In this document: positions 5,584 to 24,337 of the stretch, piece after piece
Position numbering within the stretch: position 1 is the stretch's first letter
Layout: every line of letters begins with the position of its first letter
Assembly: GCA_009693045.1 (NCBI GenBank)
Contig: SHXZ01000004.1
Span: forward strand, 62,001-126,000
DNA from: Dehalococcoidia bacterium
GTDB taxonomy: Bacteria > Chloroflexota > Dehalococcoidia > Lucifugimonadales > SHYT01
Length of the DNA stretch: 64,000 nt
Direction: 5' to 3'
The notes under the pieces: generated by a model
Seen by the model: only the letters and a program-made list of their open reading frames with translations
The model's database searches: none
What the model was told of the DNA's origin: nothing
Made by a program: the position numbers and the translations under genes

Positions 5584-6837
5584 CTACACCTGCTTGGGCG
5601 TCGTGGGCTTCCGGGCCACGGCCTGACGCTCCTCTAGCGCCGTGATTTCGCCGTCGGTGAGGCCGAGCAGTTCTTTGAGCACGTAGTCGTTGTTCTCACC
5701 GAACCGTGGGGCGGCACGCCAGAATTTGCCGGGCGTTTTGCTCATGCGCCAGACCGGGCCATCCATGGGCCACGTGCCCGCGGCGGGATGAGTCATCGCC
5801 TGGTAGAAACCACGGGCTTTGAGATGCTGGTCCTTGAGCAGGTCAAGGGGGTCCAACACCTTGCCTGCCGTGATGCGAGCCTCGGCAAGGAGCTGAAACG
5901 CGTCTTCTCGGTTGACGTCGGAGGTCCACTGCTCCACGACGGCGTCCAGGGCGTCCTCGTTCCGCTTGCGGGCGGCAGCATCCGCGAAACGTTGGTCTTT
6001 GACCAGCTCCGGCTTGCCCATCACGTTGCACAGCCGGCGCCACTCGTCCTCACTGGTGACGGCGAGGGTCAGCCACTGGTCGTCGCCCGCGCAACGGTAG
6101 CAGCCGTGGGGAGCGAACACGTCGTGACGGTTGCCCTGGGGCTTGCGCAATCGGCGGTTCATGCTCCAGTCCAGCACCGCCTCGCCGATGAGGCCGAGGA
6201 CGTTCTCTCGCTGGGCCAGTTCAATGTGCTGGCCCTTGCCGGTTCGGCGCCGGTAGAGGAGCGCGCCGACGATAGCGCCCGCAGCCGCGACTCCGGCGAG
6301 AGGATCGCCGTAGCTGATGCCGACCTTCTGTGGCTCGTCGCCCACGTAGCCGCTCATGCTGGTGAGGCCCGCGCCGTACTCGGACATGGGGCCGTAGCCA
6401 GCGTAGTTGCGGTGCGGGCCCGAGCGGCCGTACGCCTGCATGGAGAGCATGATGACGGCGGGGTTTGCCTGACGGAGGGCTTCGTAGTGAAAGCCAAGCT
6501 TCTCGGAAACGTCGGTCCGGAAGTTCTCCACAACTACATCAGAAACCTGTACGAGGCGTTTGAATACCGCAAGGCCGTCAGGCTGCCCAACGTCCAGCCC
6601 CAAGCCGTGTTTGTTCCGGTTGTAGGTGTTGAAGTACGGGCTGGTGTCGTAGTACTCGCCGCCCGCGTCAATGTTCAGGCCGCGAATCAGGTCAAAGTTG
6701 CTGGGCGCTTCCACCTTGATGACCTCAGCGCCCATATCGGCGAGGAGCTTGGTGACGTAGGCGCCGGCCCAGACCGTGCCCAAGTCGGCGACGCGCACCC
6801 CAACCAGCGGCATCCTCGTCTGCGGCGACGTGCTCAC
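5584..6837 (-). CDS. CaiB/BaiF family III CoA-transferase (first of tandem pair)
   Basis: 417 residues. The N-terminal segment (VRVADLGTVWAGAYVTKLLA, GAEVIKVE) and the motif RNKHGLGLD are family hallmarks, and Asp178 in SYGDP is the expected CoA-accepting aspartate. These enzymes swap CoA between an acyl-CoA donor and a carboxylic acid. The GTG start at 6837 overlaps the TGA of the upstream paralogue by four bases (GTGA), which implies translational coupling; an ATG lies at codon 9. With the next gene it may form a heterodimer or act on two substrates. The exact acid is not predictable. Confidence 0.9.
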   Translation of the reverse strand: MSTSPQTRMPLVGVRVADLGTVWAGAYVTKLLADMGAEVIKVEAPSNFDLIRGLNIDAGGEYYDTSPYFNTYNRNKHGLGLDVGQPDGLAVFKRLVQVSDVVVENFRTDVSEKLGFHYEALRQANPAVIMLSMQAYGRSGPHRNYAGYGPMSEYGAGLTSMSGYVGDEPQKVGISYGDPLAGVAAAGAIVGALLYRRRTGKGQHIELAQRENVLGLIGEAVLDWSMNRRLRKPQGNRHDVFAPHGCYRCAGDDQWLTLAVTSEDEWRRLCNVMGKPELVKDQRFADAAARKRNEDALDAVVEQWTSDVNREDAFQLLAEARITAGKVLDPLDLLKDQHLKARGFYQAMTHPAAGTWPMDGPVWRMSKTPGKFWRAAPRFGENNDYVLKELLGLTDGEITALEERQAVARKPTTPKQV

Positions 6838-8048
6838 GCGACCGCCTCCCGCACCTGGATGACGCCCGAGGCGGCCAGTCCTGCCAGGCCGCCCTCAGTC
6901 AGTCCGGCCAGCTCAGACAGCACCTCCGCAGTGTGCAGGCCCAGGAGCGGCGCGGGCGAGGCCTCCAGCGGCGTCTCGCTCATGCCGAAGGGCGGGCCGG
7001 GGTACCACTGCCGCCCGAGCGCGGGGTGGTCAAGCTGGCGGAAGAACCGGCGGTGCTTGAGCTGCGGCGAGTCGAACAGCTCCGCCACGGTCAGGATGGG
7101 GCTGACGGGCGCCTTGGTGCGCCCGGCGATTTCAAAAACCTGGTCCTTGGTGTGGTCCATGAACCACTGGTACATGATGGCCTGGAGGGCGTCGTCGTTG
7201 GCGCGGCGCTTGGCGCCGGTAGTAAAGCGGGGGTCGGTCGTCAGCTCAGGCTTTCCCAGGAGGGCGACAATGGCGGGCCAGTTGCGCGGCACCGCCAGGA
7301 TGCCGATGTACCCATCCTTGCAGGGGTAGACGCCGCTCAGGGCCATGCCGTGGTTGCCACGGCGCTTCATGAAGTCGCCGGCATAGGCAGCGCGGGGTCC
7401 GGCGCCCTCCAGCGTGGCCGCCAAGATTTCCATCCCCGCGATGTCCACGTGCTGGCCGGTCCCGGAGAGCTGGGCGCCATAAATGGCGGTGAGTGTGGCA
7501 GCGAAACCATTGAGGCCGAGCTGGTAGTCCGCCTGGTAGCCGTAGGGCCGCAGTGGCGCGCGGTCAGGCTCGCCGGTCATGCTCATCTGGCCGCCCATGG
7601 CGAATATGGTCAGGCTGGTGGCCGGAAGGCTCCGGTACGGGCCCGTCTGGCCGTACGGCGTGAGCGAAGTAACCACGATGGCGGGGTTCACCTCGGCGAG
7701 GCGGTCGTAGTGCAGGCCCCACTGCTGGAGCGTGCCTGGCGGGAAGCTCTCCACCACAGCGTCGCAGTGGCGAGCAATGCGACGGCAGAGGTCGGCGCCT
7801 GCGGACTTCGTCATGTCCAGCGCCACGCTCTGCTTGCCCGTGTTGAGGTGGGCGAAGAGGCCGCTGCGCTCCGGGTGCGGGTCGTCGTTGAGAAAAGGCC
7901 CCGTCCAGCGGGAGACGTCGCCGCGGGTAGGCGGCTCAATTTTGATGACGCGCGCGCCCATCATCGCCATGAGCTTGGTGGCGTACGGCCCGGCCACGAA
8001 GCTGGACAGGTCCAGAATGGTGATGCCGGTGAGGGACTGGTTAGGCAT
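6834..8048 (-). CDS. CaiB/BaiF family III CoA-transferase (second of tandem pair)
   Basis: 404 residues from the ATG at 8048; a GTG nine codons upstream lengthens the frame but adds no family sequence. ITILDLSSFVAGPYATKLMA, ARVIKIEPP and Asp174 (YQADYQLGL) identify the fold and the nucleophilic aspartate. It heads the minus-strand unit that continues into the overlapping paralogue and the crotonase, so the operon probably activates a carboxylic acid to its CoA ester and modifies it next. The two paralogues differ clearly in sequence, so this is an old duplication or separate recruitment. Confidence 0.9.
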   Translation of the reverse strand: MPNQSLTGITILDLSSFVAGPYATKLMAMMGARVIKIEPPTRGDVSRWTGPFLNDDPHPERSGLFAHLNTGKQSVALDMTKSAGADLCRRIARHCDAVVESFPPGTLQQWGLHYDRLAEVNPAIVVTSLTPYGQTGPYRSLPATSLTIFAMGGQMSMTGEPDRAPLRPYGYQADYQLGLNGFAATLTAIYGAQLSGTGQHVDIAGMEILAATLEGAGPRAAYAGDFMKRRGNHGMALSGVYPCKDGYIGILAVPRNWPAIVALLGKPELTTDPRFTTGAKRRANDDALQAIMYQWFMDHTKDQVFEIAGRTKAPVSPILTVAELFDSPQLKHRRFFRQLDHPALGRQWYPGPPFGMSETPLEASPAPLLGLHTAEVLSELAGLTEGGLAGLAASGVIQVREAVA

Positions 8049-8188
8049 GACGGTTTCCGTCCCAAGGCGCTGCACTGGGCGGATTATACGGGCGAAGCAG
8101 GGTAATGTGAAGGGCTTGTGCGTAAGACCCCCCTCTCGTGGCAGAGCATCGAGCGTGTCTTTGAGAGCCGGAGCAATACAATAGACAA

Positions 8189-8653
8189 ATGTTGCACTTA
8201 GCTCCTAACAATGGCCATGTCTTTGAACTGAGCTTGGTCAGCTACCAGTTCCCCGAGCTCAAGAACGAACGGTACGATTCCGACTGGCTCAGGATTCGGT
8301 TTAGAGTCGTCCACCCTCGTGGTGAATGGACTGGGATTGCATCGAGCCTCTTCACCTGGGAAGTCACAGGCTTGTCTGAGTGGTTTGATACTATCGCCAA
8401 CGGTGATGCAATTGAACCGGAGATTGGCTTCATTGAACCGAATCTGTTGTTTCGTTTGGTTGACGATGTGTCCGGCGGCAAATGCCTTCGGGTCTACTTC
8501 GAAATTGAATGGCGCCCTCCCTGGGCACGATCACACACATTTCCGGATTGGCCTCTTTTGGTCGAGTTCCCGCTACAAGAAATCGATCTTAGGACGGCTG
8601 CTGCAGTGCTTCGCGAAGACCTAAAGTCGTACCCGCAGCGGGCGGAATATTAA
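8189..8653 (+). CDS. WapI-like immunity-family protein (orphan), tentative
   Basis: A 154-residue soluble protein with no signal or membrane segment. The pattern of an N-terminal SYQFPE strand, YDSDWLRIRFRV, then FTWEVTGLSEWFD and an acidic C-terminal half resembles WapI-type immunity proteins of contact-dependent toxin systems; this is a recalled resemblance, not a computed match. Base composition is near 50% GC, clearly below the flanking genes, which suggests transfer. It converges on the M24 peptidase gene, sharing the TTAA at the two stops. No toxin gene is next to it. Confidence 0.5.
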   Translation: MLHLAPNNGHVFELSLVSYQFPELKNERYDSDWLRIRFRVVHPRGEWTGIASSLFTWEVTGLSEWFDTIANGDAIEPEIGFIEPNLLFRLVDDVSGGKCLRVYFEIEWRPPWARSHTFPDWPLLVEFPLQEIDLRTAAAVLREDLKSYPQRAEY

Positions 8654-9825
8654 CCCAACTTCACAACCAGCCGCTGGGGCGGCGTGGTCACCTCCGGGCC
8701 GCGCTCCGACAGGTACACGTCTATCTCCGAGCGAACGCCGAACTCCGGCAGGTATATCCCCGGCTCAATGGTCACGCCCAGCCCAGTCAGCAACTCCCGC
8801 GTGTCCTTGGTCTCCCACGAGTCCAGGTTCACCGCGTCGCCGTGCACCTCGCGGCCCAGGCTGTGGCCGAGCCGGTGAGTAAAGTATCTGCCGTAGCCTG
8901 CCTTCGTTATGTAACCCCGTGCTAGGCGATCCACTTGCCAACCCTGGACGCGCCTCCCTTCGCGGAATGCCTCCGCCATGAACTCCAGCGCCGCGTCCCG
9001 CGCGCCGATGACAGCCCGAAAGACTCGCTGGTGCTCTTTGGGAACGCGGTTGCCGACGTAGCCCACCCACGTGATGTCGGCGTACATGGCGTCGTCGCCG
9101 TGGCCACGCGCCCACAGGTCTATGAGCACCCAGTCGCCCGCCTGGATGCGGCGGCGCTCCTCCGGCGACGGCTCAAAGTGGGGGTCGCTGGCATGGGCGT
9201 TAACGGCCACTGTGGGGCCTTCCGTCGCCTCCAGGCCCTCACGCGCGTACTCGTCGCGGATGAACTGCGCCACGTCCCACTCGGTGGGCTTTTTGTTCGC
9301 CGCTTCGCGGATAAGCGTAAAGGCGCGATCAACAATGTGTGTAAGCTTGGCAGCGGCGTCACGGTGCGACGCGAGCTGCCCTGGTGTCCAGCGCTGCGTG
9401 GCGTGCTGGAACAGGTCCGCGGACGAGACGACGCGGACGCCGAGAGAGCGCACCATCTCCAGCGTCCCCGCGTCCACGCGGGAGGCGCGCGGCAGCTCGG
9501 CGCGTGGCGAGTACTCCATCGCCACGGTGCGGACGCCGGTGAGGAGGCGGCGCGCCTCAGCAATCATCTGCCGCCGGTTGGCGAACACGGCCACGGACGC
9601 GCCGAGGTGCGCCAGGCGCCCGGCGTCCACGTGGTGTGCCAGGAAGCGCGGTTCGCCCTCGCGCGGCACCAGGCACCAGCAGGACCGCGTGATGTGGCTC
9701 ACCTGCCCCACCAGACTGCGGAACACCGGGTTCATCCCTCGGTAGTCATACACCAGCCACGCAGGGATACGGCGCTGGCGCATGAAGGCCTGGGCGTCGG
9801 CGACGGCTTGGGTGAAATCCGCCAT
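8650..9825 (-). CDS. M24-family metallopeptidase (Xaa-Pro aminopeptidase-like)
   Basis: 391 residues with an N-terminal creatinase-type domain (about 1-160) and a C-terminal pita-bread domain. Metal ligands are visible as the Asp of DLWARGHG, the Asp of MYADITW, His in HRLGHSLG, Glu in IEPGIYL and Glu in VRSEIDV. Such enzymes cut X-Pro bonds in the cytoplasm or hydrolyse creatine-like amidines. The ATG at 9825 follows a GGAGGTACTC leader. It is a single-gene unit convergent with the WapI-like gene. True peptide specificity is undetermined. Confidence 0.9.
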   Translation of the reverse strand: MADFTQAVADAQAFMRQRRIPAWLVYDYRGMNPVFRSLVGQVSHITRSCWCLVPREGEPRFLAHHVDAGRLAHLGASVAVFANRRQMIAEARRLLTGVRTVAMEYSPRAELPRASRVDAGTLEMVRSLGVRVVSSADLFQHATQRWTPGQLASHRDAAAKLTHIVDRAFTLIREAANKKPTEWDVAQFIRDEYAREGLEATEGPTVAVNAHASDPHFEPSPEERRRIQAGDWVLIDLWARGHGDDAMYADITWVGYVGNRVPKEHQRVFRAVIGARDAALEFMAEAFREGRRVQGWQVDRLARGYITKAGYGRYFTHRLGHSLGREVHGDAVNLDSWETKDTRELLTGLGVTIEPGIYLPEFGVRSEIDVYLSERGPEVTTPPQRLVVKLG

Positions 9826-9951
9826 GAGTACCTCCGGCCACCTGCCCAGCGATGATACGGGTGCGCGCTCCCGTGGACAAGTCTTTTCTCGGCGGAGGGC
9901 AAGGTGCTAATATCTCCCGTGTCCGCACCACATTCGCTGTGAGGTTAGCCT

Positions 9952-11145
9952 ATGCCCGGCCCGCTGGAAGGCACCGTCGTCCTGGACCTGACGTGGATCC
10001 TCTCCGGCCCGTACTGCACCATGATGCTCGCCGACATGGGGGCCGACGTCATCAAGGTGGAGCGACCCGGCTACGGCGACGCCTCGCGGGGGACCGCGCC
10101 CGTCATCGGCCAAGACAGCGCCTACTTCATGAGCATCAACCGCAACAAGCGCAGCGTCAGTCTCAACTTGCAGGCCCAGCGCGGGCGCGAGCTGTTCCTG
10201 CGCCTGGTGGAGAAGGCGGACGTGGTCGCGGAGAACTTCACGCCCGGCACCATGAAGCGCCTGGGCATTGACTACCCGGTCCTGGAGAAAGTGAACCCGC
10301 TCCTCGTGTACTGCGCCATCTCCGGGTTCGGGCAGACGGGGCCGTACACCGAGCGCTCGGCGCTGGACATCGTGGTACAGGGCATGGGCGGCGTAATGAG
10401 CATCACGGGCGAGGAGGGCGGCAGGCCGCTGCGCGTGGGCGCGCCGGTGGGCGACATCAACGCGGGCATGACGGCGGCGATGGCGGTGTGCGCGGCGCTG
10501 GTGGAGCGGGCGAAGAGCGGACGCGGCCAGATGGTTGACGTGAGCATGCTGGACTGCCAGGTGGCGCTGGTTGAAAACGCCATCTCGCGGCACATTGCCA
10601 CGAGCGAGACGCCGGGGCCGCTTGGGACTCGCCACGCCGTGATGACGCCGTTCCAGGCGTTCCCGACGAAGGACGGCTGGCTCGTCGTGGGCATCACGGG
10701 CAGCAACCCGGGGCACTGGCCGCTCTTCTGCTCGGCCCTCGGCCGCGTGGAGCTAATTGACGACCCGCGCTACCTTACGCCCTGGGACCGCACGCAGCAC
10801 ATCCGCGATCTGGAACCGGTGCTCACCGACGCGCTTAAGCAGCGTACGACCCAGGAATGGCTGGACGAAATGATTCCGCTGGGCATCCCGTGCGGACCGG
10901 TTAACACCGTTCCGCAAGTCGTCCGCGACCCGCAGGTGCTGCACCGGGAGATGCTTGTGGAGATGCCGCACCCGAGGCTCGGGACGTGGACGTTCACCGG
11001 CGTGCCCGCCAAGCTCTCGCGGACGCCAGGGAAGGTGCGCATCCCGCCGCCGGACCTGGGCCAGCACACGGACGAGGTGCTGGGCAAGCTGCTTGGGATG
11101 GGCGTGGAGGACGTGGCGGCGCTGCGGAAGGACGGGGTGGTGTAA
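9952..11145 (+). CDS. CaiB/BaiF family III CoA-transferase (third copy)
   Basis: 397 residues with VVLDLTWILSGPYCTMMLA, ADVIKVERPG, RNKRSVSLN and the catalytic Asp168 in PVGDINAG, so an active formyl-CoA-transferase-type enzyme is expected. The final 130 bases (11,016-11,145) are nearly repeated at 12,955-13,084, where only the tail of a paralogue survives. The gene is followed after about 190 bases by a flavin monooxygenase on the same strand; coupled function is possible but the second gene has its own ribosome binding site. Confidence 0.92.
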   Translation: MPGPLEGTVVLDLTWILSGPYCTMMLADMGADVIKVERPGYGDASRGTAPVIGQDSAYFMSINRNKRSVSLNLQAQRGRELFLRLVEKADVVAENFTPGTMKRLGIDYPVLEKVNPLLVYCAISGFGQTGPYTERSALDIVVQGMGGVMSITGEEGGRPLRVGAPVGDINAGMTAAMAVCAALVERAKSGRGQMVDVSMLDCQVALVENAISRHIATSETPGPLGTRHAVMTPFQAFPTKDGWLVVGITGSNPGHWPLFCSALGRVELIDDPRYLTPWDRTQHIRDLEPVLTDALKQRTTQEWLDEMIPLGIPCGPVNTVPQVVRDPQVLHREMLVEMPHPRLGTWTFTGVPAKLSRTPGKVRIPPPDLGQHTDEVLGKLLGMGVEDVAALRKDGVV

Positions 11146-11338
11146 CACCTGAGTGGCTCGCGTCTCTACCAGTGGCAACTCTCCCTACCGACTTGCCCCG
11201 CCATACCGTCATCGATTACCCCGAAGCTACGGCACCCAGCCACTGTTCCTGCTCGCACCCAAGAAAATAACGAGATAAGACTTGACAACCTGCTGCACAT
11301 TGTCAGACAGTAACGGAACAGACACGAAAGGAGAAGCC

Positions 11339-12598
11339 ATGTTCATCGGGCACTTTACTGAGCGACCTTGGCAGGATCCCAAGTCAGGTCTTACGGGACA
11401 GGTTACTATTGACATGGAGGTTAGCAACCGGCTTTATGATCCGAAGGTAGGCCGACAGCTCTACAATCGGTATCTCGACGAGCGCGTGTACGCCGAAGAG
11501 GTCGGCTTCGACGGCGTCGCGATGAACGAGCACCATTCCACGCCTTTCTGCATGGGTGGCGTGGTCAATGTCGAGGCGCACATTCTGGCCCGCATCACCA
11601 ATAGGGTCAAGATCGTCATCATCGGGAACCTCTTGCCGTTGTGGGACGATCCTCTCTGGCTCGCTGAGCAGATCGCTGTGATGGACATGATCTCCGGCGG
11701 GCGCGTGGTGTGTGGCTGGGTGCGTGGGACTGGCCGCGAGAGCATCTCGCACAACATCAACCCCACGATCAACTGGGAACGCTACCAGGAAGCACACGAT
11801 TTCGTGATCAAGACCTGGACGACACCCGGGCCGTTCCGCTGGGAGGGCAAGCACCTGCAGTATCGCTACGTGAACCCCTGGATGGTGCCCTACCAGAACC
11901 CTCATCCGCCCATCTGGATCCCCGGCGCCGCTAGCCGCGCGACGGTGAAGTGGGCAGCGACCAACGGGTTCCCCTACGTCATGATCGCGGGCGACCTGGC
12001 ACTGGCGAAGCTGTCCTTTGACTACTACAAGGAAGTTGCGGCGGAGAGCGGCTACCAGTCGGGCACCGAGCACGTGCTAGACATGGTGAAGGTGCACGTG
12101 GACGAGACCGAACAACTGGCCGAGGAAACCGCTCGCAAGTATCTGGGCGGCGTGAGCAACCCCTTCATTGAGGGCAACGAAGGTGGCGTCCGTCCATGGG
12201 TCCAGGGCTTACCGGGACTCAACCCCCGCACGGCGAATGCGCGGATGCCAGTCGCCGCAACGCTGGCGGCGGGGCGCGGCGGCGCGGTGGGAAGGCTATC
12301 ATTTGAGGATCAGGTGAAGCAACACCGGATCATCTACGGCACTCCGAAGACGGTGATGCCGAAGATCCGGCACGTAGTAGAGCTCCTGCGGCCTGGCGGC
12401 GTTATCTTCTGGGACGGCGATGGCTCCATGACCCACGACGACCAGATGCGCAGCCTGCGGCTCTTTGGTTCAGACGTTATCCGGGCCACCCGTGAGCTTG
12501 GCAAGGAGTTGGACCTGAAGGGGCCGTTTGATGTCACGCCGGTCACCGGCATGACCCTTGCGGGTCGCCCGGGTTCGGTTTCCGGGTTCGAACACTAG
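11339..12598 (+). CDS. LLM-class flavin-dependent monooxygenase (paralogue 1)
   Basis: 419 residues of the bacterial luciferase-like family. Diagnostic parts are the N-terminal EEVGFDGVAMNEHH strand-loop, the VKIVIIGNLLPLWDDP core, DMISGGRVVCGWVRG (flavin phosphate region) and NPHPPIWIPG near the middle. These enzymes use reduced FMN or F420 to oxygenate or reduce organic substrates. The ATG at 11,339 sits five bases after AAAGGAG; an in-frame ATG 19 codons earlier has no such site. It is about two thirds identical by eye to the interrupted copy at 27.3 kb. SAR202-type Chloroflexota are known to carry many such paralogues. Confidence 0.92.
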   Translation: MFIGHFTERPWQDPKSGLTGQVTIDMEVSNRLYDPKVGRQLYNRYLDERVYAEEVGFDGVAMNEHHSTPFCMGGVVNVEAHILARITNRVKIVIIGNLLPLWDDPLWLAEQIAVMDMISGGRVVCGWVRGTGRESISHNINPTINWERYQEAHDFVIKTWTTPGPFRWEGKHLQYRYVNPWMVPYQNPHPPIWIPGAASRATVKWAATNGFPYVMIAGDLALAKLSFDYYKEVAAESGYQSGTEHVLDMVKVHVDETEQLAEETARKYLGGVSNPFIEGNEGGVRPWVQGLPGLNPRTANARMPVAATLAAGRGGAVGRLSFEDQVKQHRIIYGTPKTVMPKIRHVVELLRPGGVIFWDGDGSMTHDDQMRSLRLFGSDVIRATRELGKELDLKGPFDVTPVTGMTLAGRPGSVSGFEH

Positions 12599-12616
12599 GC
12601 ACTCGCGGGTTGTTGG

Positions 12617-12659
12617 GCCAGAGGGGGAGCCCCACACTGAATGGGGCTCCCCCTCTGGC
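12617..12659 (+). terminator. Hairpin after the monooxygenase gene
   Basis: A perfect 18-bp inverted repeat (12,617-12,634 with 12,642-12,659) with a 7-base loop lies 18 bases after the stop codon. No T tract follows, so it may act weakly or be a repeat-derived hairpin. Confidence 0.6.
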
Positions 12660-12676
12660 GTTCCGCTCGCACGCCG

Positions 12677-12916
12677 CGCCTCCAACAGCCTGGCCATCCG
12701 GTGGAGACGCAATGAGATGCAATAGTCCTTTCTGGCGCAAGTGCCTGGCAATTCCCAAATTCTTGCCAGGTTGCTGACGGTGGTATCAATCCCTACGTTC
12801 GCCGTGTCGAACTCAGGCGCGAGCACTTTCAGGACGTGGTCGATGGCGCAGTCTCTTGGCTTGTCTATGGCATAGACCAGGTGGGCGCCATTGCCGCCGC
12901 AGTCATGGTGGGTCCC
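12677..12916 (-). pseudogene. Remnant of a phage/plasmid-type primase
   Basis: Read on the minus strand, this stretch gives CGGNGAHLVYAID, then VGIDTTVSNLARIWELPGTC and LHRMARLLEA. These match, in order and spacing, the catalytic core of prim-pol/helicase primases, where intact versions read like SGNGYHLLY-ID, VD-TVFNPARIWKLYGT and RPHR. Neither end of a full gene is present and key residues are changed, so this is a fossil of an integrated element. The identification is by remembered motif order and should be tested. Confidence 0.55.
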
Positions 12917-12954
12917 GACTACCCTTGGTCGGCATTCCTGGCCTTGGGAACCAT

Positions 12955-13084
12955 CTCGCGGACGCCTGGGATGGTGCGCATCCCGCCGCCGGACCTGGGC
13001 CAGCACACGGAGGACGTGCTGGGCAAGCTTCTGGGCATGGGTGTGGAGGACGTTGCGGCGCTGCGGAAGGACGGGGTGCTGTAA
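12955..13084 (+). pseudogene. Duplicated 3' end of a CaiB/BaiF CoA-transferase
   Basis: This piece encodes SRTPGMVRIPPPDLGQHT and the rest of the C-terminal 42 residues seen at the end of the CoA-transferase at 9952-11,145, with about nine in ten bases the same. The upstream sequence is unrelated (primase remnant on the other strand), so all catalytic parts are missing. It is a scar of duplication, deletion or replacement. Confidence 0.85.
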
Positions 13085-13144
13085 ACCCGGGCCTGTGAGA
13101 CGGGAAGGGCCGACCTGGTGCTGAATGTCAGGGAAGACGACTCT

Positions 13145-13562
13145 GTGCTGACTAAGCCGCTGCAAGACTACAAGCGGTTCTTGCTGCGCGGCAACGTCGT
13201 TGACATGGCGGTGTCGGTAGTCATCGGCGCGGCCTTTGGGGCGGTGGTCAAGTCTGCGGTAGAGGACCTGGTTACGCCGCTCATCGGCATCTTCGGCAAA
13301 ACAAGACTTCTCCGACTACGCGTTCACCATCCGGGGGAGCACGTTCCGTTACGGGGAGTTTGTCAATGAAGTCGTGGCTCTACTGATCGTGGCTGCGGTG
13401 TTGTTCTTCCTGGTTGTGATACCTATGAACGCGCTCATCGCCGGACAGCGCTCAGCGTCGCCGCCGGACCCCACCACGCGGAAATGCCCGGAATGCCTCA
13501 GCGACATTCCCATCGCTGCTCGCCGGTGCGATTTCTGCCCGTCTCTCGTGTCGACGATGTAG
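13145..13562 (+). pseudogene. mscL: mscL, large-conductance mechanosensitive channel, frameshifted
   Basis: The first part reads [20 protein letters not shown], the conserved first transmembrane helix of MscL, up to IGIFGK. One extra A in the AAAA run at 13,298-13,301 then shifts the frame; removing it restores [12 protein letters not shown], the second helix (VVALLIVAAVLFFLVVIPMN) and a C-terminal zinc-ribbon tail (CPECLSDIP, CDFC). The GTG at 13,145 follows AGGGAAGA. The intact product would release solutes during osmotic downshock. A homopolymer lesion could be real or an assembly error; everything else is conserved, which favours error or a very young mutation. Confidence 0.88.
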
Positions 13563-13648
13563 GTGATAAGTGCTTGAACGCAGACGTCGTTCGCTCGACT
13601 TCTCACACGGTGGTCAAAGGACCTGCAATCATTGTTAGAAGTTAGCAG

Positions 13649-13720
13649 TGGGCCCGGTAGGGATCGAACCTACGACCAACCGGTTATGAGCCGGTCGCTC
13701 TACCATTGAGCTACGGGCCC
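13649..13720 (-). tRNA. tRNA with CAT anticodon (Met, or Ile2)
   Basis: A 72-base cloverleaf on the minus strand: acceptor GGGCCCG/CGGGCCC, D-arm GCTC/GAGC, anticodon stem ACCGG with loop CTCATAA, T-arm GTAGG-TTCGATC-CCTAC, discriminator A. The anticodon is CAT. It lacks the unpaired 1-72 end of initiator tRNA, so it is elongator Met or the lysidine-modified Ile2; the two cannot be separated reliably here. CCA is not encoded. Confidence 0.95.
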
Positions 13721-13743
13721 GTGGCGCGTCGCGCGGAGGCGGG

Positions 13744-14523
13744 TCAGGCCGATGCCAGACTATTGCCCGGAGCCTGCGCCGCCCGTATCCGCTCGTCCAG
13801 CTTTCGGACCTCCTGGACATCGTTGTCCAGGAGCTTGTAACACCGGTCCAGGTACAGCTGCGCGAGCAGCGCCCCAGCCGACGATGAGTCGCATGCAGCG
13901 TTCACCAGCCCGTCCGCGGCGCAGTTTGCGGGTAGCCGCTTGGCCAGCGCCGTGATTTCCGTCGTGGTCTCCTGCACCAGCCGCTGGTCGTTGCCGCCAA
14001 GCGCAAACCGGAGCGTGCCAATGAGCTTGGTGATCTCGGCCAGGCGGTCCCGGTCGCTCATGAACTCGGAGAGCACCTCGTTCACGCTCAGGCCGCTCAG
14101 GTCAGGCTGGCCCGCGGGCGCGTGGGACTGGGGCGACGGCATGGCGGCCGCGTGCACGTTGTACGATTCCGCGTACTCCTGCACCTGGTCGTTCACGCGC
14201 TCCAGCACAAGTTGGACTTGTGTTATGTCAATCTCGCCGCCGTACAGCAGGTCTTCGTCTCGCGCGTCGGCGAGATGCCTGAGGCGCTCAACGCTCTCCA
14301 TCGGCTCCGGCACCGGCGGAAACGCGAACGCGGAGAGGCCCCTCGCCATCAGCTCCGCGGCGTGCGGCGCCAGGAAGGGCGGCATGTATCGCACGACATC
14401 CACGGAAACGGGCAGGACGACCACGTACGTCGCCAGGAGCTTCCCGCCATTGGCGGCGTCGCGGTAGTACAACAGCGCGTGGCCCTTGGGTCGCGTGGCG
14501 TCGCCGCGCTCAAACGTCAGCAT
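13744..14523 (-). CDS. Hypothetical protein with helical C-terminal half
   Basis: 259 residues, not recognised. The N-terminal third (LTFERGDATRPKGHALLYYR, then KLLATYVVVLPVSVDVVRYM) looks like a small alpha/beta domain. A Pro/Ser-rich linker near residues 125-140 leads to a mostly helical C-terminal half rich in Leu, Asp and Glu (SGLSVNEVLSEFMSDRDRLA and on). No signal peptide or membrane helix is seen. The gene ends just downstream of the tRNA on the same strand, with about 24 bases between. Normal GC content and codon use suggest a resident gene. Confidence 0.7.
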   Translation of the reverse strand: MLTFERGDATRPKGHALLYYRDAANGGKLLATYVVVLPVSVDVVRYMPPFLAPHAAELMARGLSAFAFPPVPEPMESVERLRHLADARDEDLLYGGEIDITQVQLVLERVNDQVQEYAESYNVHAAAMPSPQSHAPAGQPDLSGLSVNEVLSEFMSDRDRLAEITKLIGTLRFALGGNDQRLVQETTTEITALAKRLPANCAADGLVNAACDSSSAGALLAQLYLDRCYKLLDNDVQEVRKLDERIRAAQAPGNSLASA

Positions 14524-14660
14524 GAGGCATCGCCGTTCCCCTCGTCTTATTCTAGTATTATAGCGTTCATACGAGCGTCACGGTTTGCGGCAAACTGAAC
14601 GGCTTCGTCGCTCGGACGGTTAGCGTACCAAAGCCCCAAACGTCATGGAGGACGCCGGCG

Positions 14661-18929: not shown

Positions 18930-19004
18930 GCGGGAGTAGCTCAGTGGTAGAGCTCCTGCCTTCCAAGCAGGATGTCGTGGGTTCAAGTCCCATCTCCCGC
19001 TCCA
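18930..19004 (+). tRNA. tRNA-Gly (TCC)
   Basis: Acceptor GCGGGAG/CTCCCGC, D-arm GCTC/GAGC, anticodon stem CCTGC with loop CTTCCAA (anticodon TCC), T-arm GTGGG-TTCAAGT-CCCAT, discriminator T and an encoded CCA at 19,002-19,004. The 187 bases after it contain no gene I can support; such tRNA 3' ends are common integration sites but no integrase is present. Confidence 0.97.
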
Positions 19005-19191
19005 TTCGCATCACAAAGCCACAAACAACCACTAGCCCCCCAATTTGACCCCCACTTGACAAGGACACAACGCACCACGACACCATAACTCGGCAAGCCG
19101 GCAGAGTTCAGGCAGACCACCTCGTCAAGGCCGCCAAACCTCCATCCATTAGCCCTATCAGTCGCCTACGCGAGCCGGCGTCAAAACAGAA

Positions 19192-20313
19192 TCACGGCCA
19201 TGACGTTGGGCTGCTCTGCCCGAAGCTGGAGACCACCGCGAAGATGTCGTTGATCGTCACCGCGCCGTCGCCGTTCTGGTCCACGAAGCGGCCCTGGGCG
19301 TCAAGCCGGCTCGGCGGGCTCGTGCCGAAGGCTGCCACCACCGCTGAGATGTCCAGAATGGTCACGGCCGTGTCATTGTTGACCAGCCCGGCACGGAGCT
19401 GCACGGTAGGAAGAGTCACGGCGCTGCTGCCCACCTGGACATCAGCGCGCTGGGCCGACAGGTACCCAGACGCCAAGGCAGTGAAGGTGACGGCCCCCGC
19501 GCCCACGTTGGCGAACTGGAACGTGCCGTCCATCGCGACGTTGGCGGTGATGTTGCCGGGGCTCATGGTGACCGTGGCGATGCTGTGGCCCACGCCCGCA
19601 GGGAAGGTGGCCGTGCGCCCCTGGAGCATCACCGTGCCGCTGACGGTAACCCCCGTCAGGACCTGAAGGGTGTTGGTCTGGCCGGGCCCGATGGTCGTGC
19701 CGCCGTCCGTGAACTGCGTCCCGAACGCGCCGCCTGTCAGAAGGCTCAGGATGGGGTTGGCGGTGCCAACTCGGGTCAGCACAAAGGTCATGACGTTCCC
19801 CGTGGTGACGACGACGTTGACTGCTCCGGCGGCATGGCCTGGCGTGGTGGCGGTTATGGTGGTGGCGTTGACGACGGTGACGGCGGTGGCCGCCGTGCCT
19901 CCGAAACTAACCGTGGCACCGGACAGGAACACCATGCCTGTCAGTATCACCGCCGTGCCACCGGAGGCCGGGCCGCTGGCGGGCGCCACAGAGCTCAGGG
20001 TGAGTGGGACCCCGGTGACCTGAAGGGTGTTGGTCGCGCCGGGGGTGATTCCCGTGGCGCCGTCGAAATACTGCGTTGGAGAGGCCCCGGTCCGGCCAAT
20101 CGTCAGCGCCACGTCTCCGGCTAATGCCCGCGTGAGCACGAAGCTCAGGGCGTCCCCCGTCGTCGCGGCCACGTTGCCGCTGGCGAGCTGGCAGCCGATC
20201 AGCGTACCACCGCTGGCCGGAGCCGGCGCGACCACCGTTGCCCCTGCGAAGATGCCGATGCACGCTGGAGAAGTGACGGTCACGGCGCCGGAATGCTGGA
20301 TGTTGACCTGCAC
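19192..20313 (-). pseudogene. C-terminal half of surface protease: repeat/TIG modules and dockerin-like tail
   Basis: This frame begins directly after the TGA of the protease frame and in the same reading frame, so it is best read as its continuation. It holds two copies of a 60-residue module (SFVLTRALAGD and TFVLTRVGTAN, each ending TNTLQV), an IPT/TIG-like domain (VAPASGPASGGTAVILTG), a carboxypeptidase-regulatory-like segment (TVSGTVMLQG) and a C-terminal dockerin-like pair (VTILDISAVVAAFG and DQNGDGAVTINDIFAVVSSF). The second EF-like loop has all Asp/Asn ligands. As a separate gene it would start with GTG at 20,313 and have no signal peptide or ribosome binding site. Confidence 0.75.
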
Positions 20314-22398
20314 TCAGTCCACCTCGGCAGAGACGTTGGCGGCCTGCGCCTTGATCGTCGCCGAGTTGTTGACCGAAGGGAGGTTGGCGCCCACGGGGCT
20401 AAACTGCGTGAAGGTGGCGCTGGAGTTCATGACGGCGGCAGCGTTCACGCCGCTGACCCGACCGCTGCCGAAGATGTTGTCCAACCCCGGAGCGCCCAGG
20501 TCCACGGCGGCGCCCACGATGGCAGCGCGCAGGGCGGCCCGGTCCGCCGCCGGGTTGTCCCCTGGCTCGCCTTGCTTGAGGTCCGGCCGGTACGAAAGCA
20601 GCAGCGCCGCCAGTCCCGCCACGTGCGGCGCCGCCGCGGAGGTCCCGGAGAAGCTGCTGGGGAAGCCGCCGAAGCCGGTCACGTCCACCCCGTCGATGCC
20701 GGTCACGTCCGGCTTGGTGACGCCGTTCCTGGTGGGCCCGCGAGAGCTGAACGGCTCGATGTCGTCCAAGCCGGGGTCCCCAGCGGCGATGGCCCCCACG
20801 GAGACCACGCCACCACCCACGTCGCTGGGGGCAACCAAGCTGCCGGCCATGGGGTTGAAGCAGAGGAACGTATTAGTCCCTGGCCATGGCGTCCCGCCGT
20901 CGGGCAAGAAGAGCTCCAGCGTCTTGGGCGATGAGAGGTTGCCGAAGTTCTGGATGAGGATGTCCAAGACCAGGATCGCGGCAGTGGTGTTGGTGAAACC
21001 CAGGATCTCAAAAGGGTTCCTGGTTACCAACCTATTGTCGTCTACGCTGGCAGCTACGACAGGGCCGGCAGGATTCACCCGCAGAAAGAGGTCGTAATCG
21101 GTCGTTGCGCTGCCGAAAGTATCGTTCCAGGTGAGGGCAACCCTTATGGTCTGGCCTGGGGGTATCCTGATGGCATTACCGATGGACGGGTTGCTGCCGG
21201 TGGCATGAGTCGTGGAGGCCGAGGACGCAAAGCTATGCAAGGCGCCGGTGCAGCCGGAGCTGACGGAAGGGGTTCCCTCCACGCCGGAGTTCACAAACAG
21301 CCCAGCGTAGTGGCGCAACGCCTCGTAGCCCCCCGCGGTGTAATAGCCGCGCATTGCGTTCGTCGCACGGTTGAGCTCCTCGGCCAGGTTCGTGGAAAGG
21401 GCGCTGGTCTGGTCATTTGCGTTGCCAAAGAAGCCCAGGTCATCCACAACCACATCGGCGTTGGCCGCCAGGAAGTCGACGGCTGCTATGAATTCCAGCG
21501 ATGTCCCCACGTTGGCGAAGAGCAATTGGGCGCCTGGAGCGATATCGTGGACAATCTCCAACATCGCCGTGCCCTCAGCGCCGTCCTCCAGGTCGCCGTT
21601 GGCGCGGAAGGACTGGGCGATGACCCCTCCCGTCGTGGAGACGAGCTTGCCGGCACCGTCCCGGTTCAGGGTCGTGGCAGACAGGTCTCCGGCAGCGATG
21701 AATGCGGCCAGGCCCGCGATGCCGTCCGATATCACCCCTACCCGGACGCCGCTGCCGTTCACCCCGACGGCGACCCGCAAGGAGGAGAAGCTCAGGAGCG
21801 CGTCCCCCTGGGTGAGCCGCGAGCCAACCCTATAAACCGGGTAGTCCGGCGCCACCAGGTACGAGACGTAGATCTGCTCGGCCATGGGCCCCAAGGCCCG
21901 GACCGGGATGCTGCACTGGACCAGGCCCCTTTGCGTGTCCTCTCGCTCGATCACGACCCCCAGCGCCCGCATGCTTTCGCGCTCCTCGGGGCCAAGGCGG
22001 GTGACGCGCATGGAGACTTGGAGCCGTCCCGCCTTGTCCAGGCGCAGGAGCCCGGCGTTGAAATGGGCCTGGAGCTGGGGACTGGCCTCTGCAAGGGCCT
22101 CCGGGGTCACAGCCTCCCCCTCAGGCAGCTCCGCCGCCACTTGCGCGAGCATGGCCAGGGCGGTGAAAAACTCGGGGTGCTTCTTTGGCACGGCGGCCGT
22201 GGGAGGCAGGGCGCCAAGCACACCAGGGACAAGTGTTCGCAACCGGGCCGCGTCTTCCGCGGAGAAGTTTCTCGCCAGGGTTTGTATCAGTGAAACGCGA
22301 CGCATCGCGGCCTGGCCGGACACCTGCTGCATGACGGCATCGTATGCCGCCGAGAGCTTCCTCGCTGTCTCTTCAGGCAGATCAAGCCAGACCCTCAA
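20314..22398 (-). CDS. Subtilisin-fold (S8-like) protease domain protein
   Basis: 694 codons. The S8 fold is seen from Asp225 (GVISDGIAG) to Ser587 (FSGTSAAAPHVAG). At the place of the catalytic His-Gly-Thr stands Glu275-Gly-Thr (AEGTAMLEIVHDIAPG), so the triad would be Asp, Glu, Ser, as in sedolisins, unless His284 substitutes. After the domain, SATIKAQAANVSAEVD and the sequence beyond the TGA (VQVNIQHSG) look like the start of a proprotein-convertase P-like domain cut by the stop. The start is TTG 22,398 directly after a TAA; ATG codons lie at residues 23 and 32. No signal peptide is visible, which is odd for a dockerin-bearing protein and hints at a truncated 5' end. Confidence 0.8.
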   Translation of the reverse strand: MRVWLDLPEETARKLSAAYDAVMQQVSGQAAMRRVSLIQTLARNFSAEDAARLRTLVPGVLGALPPTAAVPKKHPEFFTALAMLAQVAAELPEGEAVTPEALAEASPQLQAHFNAGLLRLDKAGRLQVSMRVTRLGPEERESMRALGVVIEREDTQRGLVQCSIPVRALGPMAEQIYVSYLVAPDYPVYRVGSRLTQGDALLSFSSLRVAVGVNGSGVRVGVISDGIAGLAAFIAAGDLSATTLNRDGAGKLVSTTGGVIAQSFRANGDLEDGAEGTAMLEIVHDIAPGAQLLFANVGTSLEFIAAVDFLAANADVVVDDLGFFGNANDQTSALSTNLAEELNRATNAMRGYYTAGGYEALRHYAGLFVNSGVEGTPSVSSGCTGALHSFASSASTTHATGSNPSIGNAIRIPPGQTIRVALTWNDTFGSATTDYDLFLRVNPAGPVVAASVDDNRLVTRNPFEILGFTNTTAAILVLDILIQNFGNLSSPKTLELFLPDGGTPWPGTNTFLCFNPMAGSLVAPSDVGGGVVSVGAIAAGDPGLDDIEPFSSRGPTRNGVTKPDVTGIDGVDVTGFGGFPSSFSGTSAAAPHVAGLAALLLSYRPDLKQGEPGDNPAADRAALRAAIVGAAVDLGAPGLDNIFGSGRVSGVNAAAVMNSSATFTQFSPVGANLPSVNNSATIKAQAANVSAEVD

Positions 22399-22516
22399 TT
22401 ATGGACGGAGGTCGTTCGTTTGCAATCTCCCCGCTGCCGTCGGCGCCGCTGTCCCATTTCGAAGGCAAAGTGGGGCCGTATTCTCGCCGCCGCTCCGCGT
22501 CCGCAGCTGCCGGGAC

Positions 22517-24337
22517 CTAACCCCAATACTCCTTCCACCGCTCGTCCACCTTCCGCACGACGTCCGGGTCCATCCGGAGCACCTCGGGGTAGCCCGGCTT
22601 CCACGTCGCGTCGATGCCCATGGCGCCTCGGTACGTCGGCTGGACACCTGTGAGCCTCGCCTCCGTGAACAGCACGTCGCGGGCCGGGTCAAACCGCATG
22701 AAGATGCCCCACAGCAGCGCGTCGTCATCGTCCAGGTCCACGTCCGCGCTCACCGCCGCGATGACCCTCACGCCCTGCATCTCATGGGCCGTCACCAGCC
22801 GCTCCAGCACCGAGCGAGCAGGAAAGTCCACCTGCACAGCGAGCAGCGTGTCCTCGACGAGTCTCCATCGCTTGATCTCCGGGCAGATGGCCTTGAGGTC
22901 GGCGCGCAAGACCGGCCCTTCGCCGACGCGTTCAGTCGCCGCGTCCGGGCCTCGCGAGTGTCCCGGCATCGTCGCCTCAAGCGGCAAGCCGGCGCCGGGC
23001 TTGCTCGTCGCATCCAGCACCATGCGGCTGCCCAGGTGCATCTGGTAGCTCGTGAAGTCCAGCGTGTCCAGCGCCACGCGGGAGAGCAGGGTGAAGTCCC
23101 GCTCCGGGCTGAAGTTTCGCCGGACCGCCCGAAGCACCGCGCGGAAGTCGCGGACGTTCACGTCCGGGTCCACCAGGATGAGGCACTTGGTCAGTGAGAG
23201 CTGGCCCTCGCCAAGGAGCGCGAGCGCCGTCTTCACGGGTTCCTTCACGTGCCGCCCCTGCACGGCGGCGACGACCAGGTTCACGAACCCCGCCTGGTAG
23301 TACGACCACAGGTCGGTGACCTCCGGGTGCAGCAGCCGCACGAAGGGCCGCAGCAGCGCCTGCGCCGTCTCGCCCCAGAACCGCTCCTCCTGCGGCGGCC
23401 GACCTACCACGGCGGCGGGGAACACAGGGCTGCGGCGCCTGGTGACGGCGCGCAGGTGGAACACGGGAAACGGCGCCGCCTCCGAGTAGTGCCCCAGGTG
23501 GTCGCCGAACGGGCCTTCGATCCTCCGCTCGCCGGGTGGCGCAACGCCCTCCAGCACGAACTCCGCGTTGGCCGGGACCTGCCCGCGTATCGTCTTGCCG
23601 CGCGCCATGGGCGTCGGCTTCCCCCGGAGCAGCCCCGCGAAGACCAACTCCTCCAGCATCTCCGGCAGCGGCAGCAGCGACGCCAACATCAGCGCCGGGT
23701 CGCCGCCCAGGACCACGGCCACCTCCAGCGGCTCGCCGCGCTCCTCAGCCTCCACGTAGTGGAACCCGCCGCCGCGCCCGAGCTGCCAGTGCAGCCCCGC
23801 CGTCGTCTCGGAGTACACCTGCATCCGGTAGACGCCCAGGTTGCTTCGTCCAGTCTTCGGGCTGCGCGTGAGCACCAGCGGCCACGTGAGGAATCGCCCG
23901 CCGTCACGCGGCCAGCTTCTGAGCGCGGGCAGCGAAGTGAGATCGCCGGGGCGCTCCAGCACCTGCTGGCTGATGGCGTTGCGGACGCCGACGGTGCGGG
24001 CGGCGCGGAGCCGGAGCAGCGTGCTCCTGTTCCGCCACAGCGCCCTCGGCGACGGCGGCATCAGTTCCTGCACCGTTCGCACGACGCTCTCGCCGAACGC
24101 TCCCGGCTCCATGCCCAGCGCCATGCGCACGCGCCGCTCGCTGCCGAACAGGTTGATGACCAGCGGGTACCGCGAGCCGGCGACGCTCTCAAACAGCAGC
24201 GCCGGCCCGCCCTCGCGGACCACGCGCGTGTAGACCTCCGTGATCTCCATCGCTGGGTCCACGGTCGCGCGGACGCGCTTGAGCTCGCCGTGGCGCTCAA
24301 GGTCGGCGATAAAGGACTGAAGATCAGCGTATGGCAT
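22517..24337 (-). CDS. UbiD-family decarboxylase
   Basis: 606 residues from ATG 24,337 (MPYADLQSF); upstream frame codons add no family sequence. UbiD features: DLERHGELKRV near the start, RSNLGVYRMQVYSETTAGLH and GDPALMLAS in the prenyl-FMN domain, PANAEFVLEG, then EGPFGDHLGHYS with the catalytic Glu region. These enzymes decarboxylate aromatic or alpha,beta-unsaturated acids using prenylated FMN. The length and position next to UbiX and UbiA point to menaquinone synthesis (the MqnL role in the futalosine route) over aromatic degradation, although no other mqn genes are in view. Confidence 0.92.
   Translation of the reverse strand: MPYADLQSFIADLERHGELKRVRATVDPAMEITEVYTRVVREGGPALLFESVAGSRYPLVINLFGSERRVRMALGMEPGAFGESVVRTVQELMPPSPRALWRNRSTLLRLRAARTVGVRNAISQQVLERPGDLTSLPALRSWPRDGGRFLTWPLVLTRSPKTGRSNLGVYRMQVYSETTAGLHWQLGRGGGFHYVEAEERGEPLEVAVVLGGDPALMLASLLPLPEMLEELVFAGLLRGKPTPMARGKTIRGQVPANAEFVLEGVAPPGERRIEGPFGDHLGHYSEAAPFPVFHLRAVTRRRSPVFPAAVVGRPPQEERFWGETAQALLRPFVRLLHPEVTDLWSYYQAGFVNLVVAAVQGRHVKEPVKTALALLGEGQLSLTKCLILVDPDVNVRDFRAVLRAVRRNFSPERDFTLLSRVALDTLDFTSYQMHLGSRMVLDATSKPGAGLPLEATMPGHSRGPDAATERVGEGPVLRADLKAICPEIKRWRLVEDTLLAVQVDFPARSVLERLVTAHEMQGVRVIAAVSADVDLDDDDALLWGIFMRFDPARDVLFTEARLTGVQPTYRGAMGIDATWKPGYPEVLRMDPDVVRKVDERWKEYWG

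Follow-up and report, generated by a model that had tools for sequence, protein, structure and literature searches.

On the minus strand of the window (the 64,000-nucleotide stretch of DNA analysed here), positions 22398–19192 encode a subtilisin-like protease with Glu in place of the usual catalytic His, followed after a TGA by a tail of surface modules in the same frame. Is this locus a working protease, a pair of genes, or the remains of a single gene, and does the Glu belong to this copy alone or to its relatives as well?

Layout of the divided gene

The sequence-only reading had described one frame split by a TGA, and this description was borne out. ORF A (20314–22398, minus strand; 694 aa), a small-protein fragment fused to a Glu-type (hereafter E-type) subtilase, and ORF B (19192–20313, minus strand; 373 aa), a stranded C-terminal tail, share one reading frame and are separated by the TGA at 20316–20314. 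The codon after the TGA is GTG, with a GAGG 8 nt upstream of it, and ORF A itself opens at a TTG "start" right after an in-frame TAA (22399–22401, minus strand). Since ORFs of 356 and 362 aa are also present on the strand opposite ORF A and ORF B, an open frame alone is little evidence here, and the coding nature of the two ORFs was shown by their domain matches. Pfam Peptidase_S8 (PF00082) matched ORF A above its cut-off at aa 521–646, the only S8 match in the genome that carries the window (1.85 Mb in 15 contigs, 82.8% complete). The catalytic subtilisin-fold domain spans aa 184–655 (20434–21849, minus strand) and is preceded by a propeptide-like region at aa 66–183 (21850–22203, minus strand).

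ORF B contains a TIG/IPT domain (19795–20001, minus strand; 47.8 bits, above the Pfam cut-off), a carboxypeptidase regulatory-like domain (19396–19596, minus strand; CarboxypepD_reg, 20.1 bits, below the cut-off of 32.3), and a dockerin-like domain (19240–19383, minus strand). The last of these scored 22.7 bits against a Dockerin_1 cut-off of 22.9 when the protein was searched and 26.4 bits, above the cut-off, in the genome scan; judged from its sequence, which we compared with that of L117, its second Ca-binding loop is intact and its first EF-hand loop is degenerate. The surface modules expected after the TGA were thus found for the TIG domain and, close to the cut-off, for the dockerin; the regulatory-like domain, of a kind that recurs beside dockerins elsewhere, had not been named. 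A P-domain-like motif said to straddle the stop found no support, as Pfam P_proprotein gave no match there at E ≤ 1 or at E ≤ 0.1 in profile searches that may miss remote forms. We also considered a hidden cohesin in the stop-straddling region and dropped this idea because a local profile built from 10 cohesin stretches of the class, one of which (L209) had an uncertain reading frame, had no hit in the tail. The fold predicted for the read-through tail from the single sequence had a mean pLDDT of 39.9 and was uninformative.

The arrangement of the E-type relatives indicates that the stop divides a former single gene, as the sequence-only reading had proposed: these homologues carry their C-terminal modules within one ORF, and among those that we read none was seen to keep a separate downstream gene. 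An independently started second gene was rejected because the relatives keep one ORF, with weak reinitiation retained as a rival that is weighed below. Dockerin_1 matched above its cut-off in the same ORF as an E-type S8 domain in five named Chloroflexota records (L132, L135, L136, L137, and L170), which were picked from 12 candidate loci because their tails looked dockerin-like. An ORF of 1542 aa in G050 joins S8 to a carboxypeptidase-regulatory domain, and in other relatives the C-terminus is a short hydrophobic segment resembling a sorting signal (in L006, IPTL_CTERM scored 14.9 bits, below the cut-off of 20.5). The pair of regulatory and dockerin domains is found in other genomes behind unrelated domains as well and can therefore be regarded as a mobile surface cassette. 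No E-type S8 with an identical TIG, regulatory, and dockerin tail was seen in other genomes, so the exact ancestral gene has not been seen.

Two side observations concern the relatives and the class at large. At L035 (G032:C1:6000-25000), subtilase-type ORFs stand in tandem at about 5700–14600: a His-type one split over two frames, an E-type one with a sorting-signal-like tail, and a third, which is followed by Calx-beta-like repeats. Elsewhere in the class, cohesin and dockerin sometimes lie in one ORF or in adjacent ones (e.g., G488:C48 and G379:C148).

Lesions of the window copy and their explanation

The N-terminus of ORF A is foreign to the rest. The fragment covering aa 1 to about 62 (22213–22398, minus strand) has no signal peptide and matches residues 70–130 of a separate protein of about 160 aa found in genomes of the same order; in the pairwise comparison, aa 1–65 matched residues 69–132 of this small protein with 50% identity over 64 aa, and the TAA upstream of ORF A aligned to its residue 69. 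It is thus the C-terminal half of the small protein (162 aa in L040) that is matched; among the 250 genomes of the order, seven gave this match, counting the fragment described here. Homology to the intact E-type subtilases starts with the propeptide-like region, these homologues aligning to ORF A only from about aa 56–68 onward. A hydrophobic stretch was present in all 16 of the homologue N-termini scored (17-mer Kyte-Doolittle values of 1.96–2.83). The N-terminus of the window copy reached a maximum of 1.22, and the frames in the 120 bases upstream did not exceed 0.29; neither contains a hydrophobic segment like that of the homologues. The small protein itself, which has no Pfam family, occurs in six other genomes of the order (L040:3322-3810, L017, L018, L020, L021, and L083), and in L020 the reading frame runs on into it from a response-regulator-like receiver domain.

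Within the protease, Tyr358 (TAC; 21325–21327, minus strand) replaces the Asn of the oxyanion hole (Asn155 in subtilisin), which is Asn in 34/34 and 75/77 homologues in two alignments. The TGA falls after the protease domain. Immediately ahead of Glu275, a loop of 6–7 residues is missing that occurs in those close homologues in which this region is covered. The disabling lesions, namely the foreign N-terminus, Tyr358, and the TGA, are absent from the relatives. The sequence-only reading had implied a working protease and had overlooked the foreign N-terminus, the lack of a signal peptide, and the Tyr; with the oxyanion Asn and the signal peptide both lost, the implied activity does not hold for this copy.

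Other measures of the window copy were still normal. Among 146 columns invariant in seven close relatives, 12 (8.2%) are changed in it, within the 0 to 12.3% of those relatives; its end branch of 0.58 equals the tree median; and GC3 is 0.84 in ORF A after the fragment and 0.85 in ORF B, with 0.68 in the fragment. Since the conserved columns, branch length, and GC3 are unaffected, any decay would have to be recent.

The position of the locus was compared with two genomes of the same family, which keep its flanks, a peptidase-MA gene and tRNA-Gly on one side and ubiD on the other, and differ in the genes of the interval; a whole-genome search found no match to ORF A in either. The interval between tRNA-Gly(TCC) and ubiD (window positions 18930–22517) has different contents in all three family genomes, at 3.2 to 6.2 kb, and is possibly a rearrangement hotspot.

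We think it probable that the window copy derives from a secreted E-type subtilase of several domains, ending in a dockerin-type tail, and that it was inactivated recently. The ancestral gene would have encoded in one frame a signal peptide, a propeptide, the protease, and TIG, carboxypeptidase-regulatory-like, and dockerin-like domains, and its tail would have located the protease at or close to the cell surface. A rearrangement in the variable tRNA-Gly/ubiD stretch may have removed the promoter and signal-peptide end, so that the propeptide became fused to the C-terminal part of a small, unrelated gene; the oxyanion Asn would then have changed to Tyr, and the TGA would have arisen just after the protease domain. 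We infer this order of the lesions, and likewise that no functional product is made.

The TGA and the Tyr could be assembly errors, the genome being metagenome-derived, and it is conceivable, if unlikely, that the organism has an intact gene for one long protein, the TGA and perhaps Tyr358 being errors of sequencing or assembly. Such a reading would agree with the frame and codon bias kept after the TGA, with the five Chloroflexota ORFs that combine an E-type S8 domain with a dockerin, and with the frame breaks in other E-type copies from metagenome-derived genomes (L071, G169:C81; L072, G065:C5), which may themselves reflect decay or assembly error. It leaves unexplained, however, the foreign N-terminus with the missing signal peptide, as well as Tyr358 as a second independent lesion. 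Quite unlikely, in our assessment, is a repurposing of the locus, in which the helices of the small protein and a dead cytoplasmic subtilase fold would form a pseudoenzyme and ORF B would be made by termination-reinitiation at the TGA-GTG. The GAGG 8 nt before the GTG and the unraised level of substitution in conserved columns are consistent with this idea, but the fusion was found in no other genome among the 250 of the order, where the matches to aa 1–65 are separate small ORFs; the fragment begins right after a stop and without an ATG; and TIG and dockerin domains are of extracellular types, which reinitiation would leave in the cytoplasm.

Decoding of the TGA as selenocysteine was tested because the genome has its own tRNA-Sec gene with the anticodon TCA (73.5 bits against a gathering score of 47, and also found by ARAGORN). 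We rejected it as very improbable: despite this tRNA, no SECIS-like fold better than shuffles was found, three RNA windows after the TGA giving z values of −1.11, −0.64, and −0.32, and the RNA after the TGA had no Rfam match. Moreover, the site showed neither a redox motif nor a homologue with Cys, and ORF B and a neighboring gene also end in UGA. The tRNA-Sec gene lies outside the window (G000:C12:158100-158191, L215), and because of its presence the genome may make selenoproteins.

Recent inactivation thus remains the preferred reading; taken alone, the window copy would represent the ordinary decay of a surface-protein gene and would be of modest interest.

Glutamate at the His position and the E-type clade

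We then aligned 36 homologue segments obtained by whole-protein searches of relatives in which no motifs were used. The His slot was covered by 34 of them and was occupied by His with textbook motifs in 22 and by Glu in 12. The Glu segments have EGT, in a few cases EGS or EGR, and mostly S-D-G where the His-type segments have D-x-G. Glu275 of the window copy (21574–21576, minus strand) aligns ungapped with the HGT of the His-type relatives. The alignment confirmed the numbering of Asp225, Glu275, and Ser587 (20638–20640, minus strand; GTSAAAPH) given in the sequence-only reading. The Asp it had named is present, but the canonical Asp32 slot is held by Ser224, Asp225 being the next residue (Ser224 and Asp225, 21724–21729, minus strand). 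Subtilisin numbering was fixed with a profile of 11 His-type relatives, whose Asp, HGT, N-x-S, and GN motifs fell on the active-site motifs of subtilisin BPN'.

A scan of named genomes yielded 80 loci, from Chloroflexota, Acidobacteriota, methanogenic archaea, Gammaproteobacteria, Patescibacteria, and others, of which 78 were aligned and 77 covered the His slot; some are the same records as genomes from the whole-protein searches. The patterns used were E[IV][VI]HDIAP and G[VL]I[ST]DGI[AFN]G, and the loci are therefore biased toward S/T-D-G. In this set the His slot is Glu in 75/77 loci, the nucleophile slot is Ser in 75/75, and the oxyanion slot is Asn in 75, Ser in one, and Asp in one of 77. 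The Asp32 slot is Ser in 70/77, and the Asp225 slot is Asp in 58/77 and Asn in 14/77. Given these counts, Glu at the His64 slot is a trait of the clade and not peculiar to the window copy, and Asp225 is not fully conserved.

A further position separates the two types. The residues Asp319-Asp320 (21439–21444, minus strand) occupy subtilisin positions 124–125, where His-type relatives have Ser125; slot 320 is Asp in 12/12 E-type segments and Ser in 21/22 His-type segments of the 36-segment alignment (one count for slots 124–125 left out the His-type L194), and it is Asp in 76/77 scanned loci. The two types thus differ in joint core changes of Asp32 to Ser, His64 to Glu, and Ser125 to Asp. In a quick tree built without the active-site columns, the E/H label required one change, and the separating branch had an SH-aLRT value of 99; the 66 rows of this tree were about every second row of the 80-locus alignment, with spotted duplicates and short pieces omitted.

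These features raise the possibility, which we put forward tentatively, that the subtilisin fold of the E-type clade has an active site of a third kind, a Ser-Glu-Asp arrangement with the Asp at the Ser125 position and a subtilisin-type Asn oxyanion hole. In the intact relatives, Glu275 would act as the general base for Ser587, as in sedolisins, and Asn358 would hold the oxyanion. Near-invariant and predicted to adjoin Glu275 and Ser587, Asp320 is the best candidate for the missing third acid. The acid would then lie on the strand segment that bears Ser125 in subtilisins, a place distinct from both the Asp32 slot and the Glu helix. The intact E-type clade is for this reason of more interest than the window copy, and it deserves biochemistry.

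Comparison with known dockerin systems, subtilases, and sedolisins

The dockerin-like tail had been taken to imply cohesin partners. No cohesin (PF00963) match was found in the 82.8%-complete genome at E ≤ 1, and the genome has one dockerin match above the cut-off. The expectation is reasonable for the class, since 59 of its 79 dockerin-bearing genomes also have a cohesin match (383 genomes in all, 73 with cohesin; odds ratio 61). The cohesin and dockerin sets of the class look like non-cellulosomal surface systems. With the dockerin- and cohesin-containing extracellular proteins of such systems, ORF B shares a C-terminal Dockerin_1-like domain, and 59 of the 383 class genomes have both dockerin and cohesin; ORF B differs in that its own genome has no cohesin match and one Ca-loop of its dockerin is degenerate.

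The model of ORF A (694 aa) had a mean pLDDT of 66.6, and its best structural matches (VIA) were subtilisin chains, with Z values of 26–28 and deviations of 2.5–3 Å over about 245 residues. Pro-kumamolisin (1t1e) was ranked 33 by Foldseek, and sedolisins were absent among the 50 VIA rows, which alone proves nothing. Proteins with the EGTAMLEIVHDIAPGA motif are probably filed in CDD under "Peptidases_S53_like" (cd05562), a name found in no paper of the collection searched. An ED-S family also appears in a passage of PMC9549277, which cites Siezen et al. 2007 for it.

Likeness to the S8 subtilases (clan SB) lies in the subtilisin fold (Z of about 27 with BPN'-type chains) and the Ser nucleophile, and for the intact E-type relatives also in the oxyanion Asn, which the window copy lacks. 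The slots of the Asp32-His64-Ser221 triad are occupied in the window copy by Ser224, Glu275, and Ser587, and the clade as a whole departs from S8 in having Glu for His64, Ser for Asp32, and Asp at the Ser125 position. According to passages of a 2024 structural survey (PMC11593635), residue 125 contacts both the base and the nucleophile and is Ser in the main subtilase groups, the Asn and the Ser/Thr groups, with two exceptions outside these groups, PCSK9 and a thiazoline oxidase/subtilisin-like protease.

With the S53 sedolisins (serine-carboxyl proteinases), the clade shares a related fold, a Ser nucleophile, and a Glu at the position homologous to His64; the homology of the S53 Glu to the subtilase His is stated in a passage of PMC6278154. 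The sedolisin Asp is the fifth residue of the base-acid peptide (Glu+4), and the sedolisin oxyanion residue is also Asp, as described in PMC11593635. The likeness to sedolisins suggested by the sequence-only reading is therefore half right: the Glu stands at the sedolisin-homologous position, but both the Asp at Glu+4 and the oxyanion Asp, two defining residues, are absent, and sedolisin membership was rejected. In place of the former, the window copy has Met279 and the 77 loci have Met in 50, Leu in 17, Ile in nine, and Val in one; in place of the latter, the E-type oxyanion residue is Asn, and the Ser at position 125 is replaced by Asp. The E-type clade, in which Ser fills the acid slot, Glu is the presumed base, and Asp stands at position 125, fits neither the S8 nor the S53 type.
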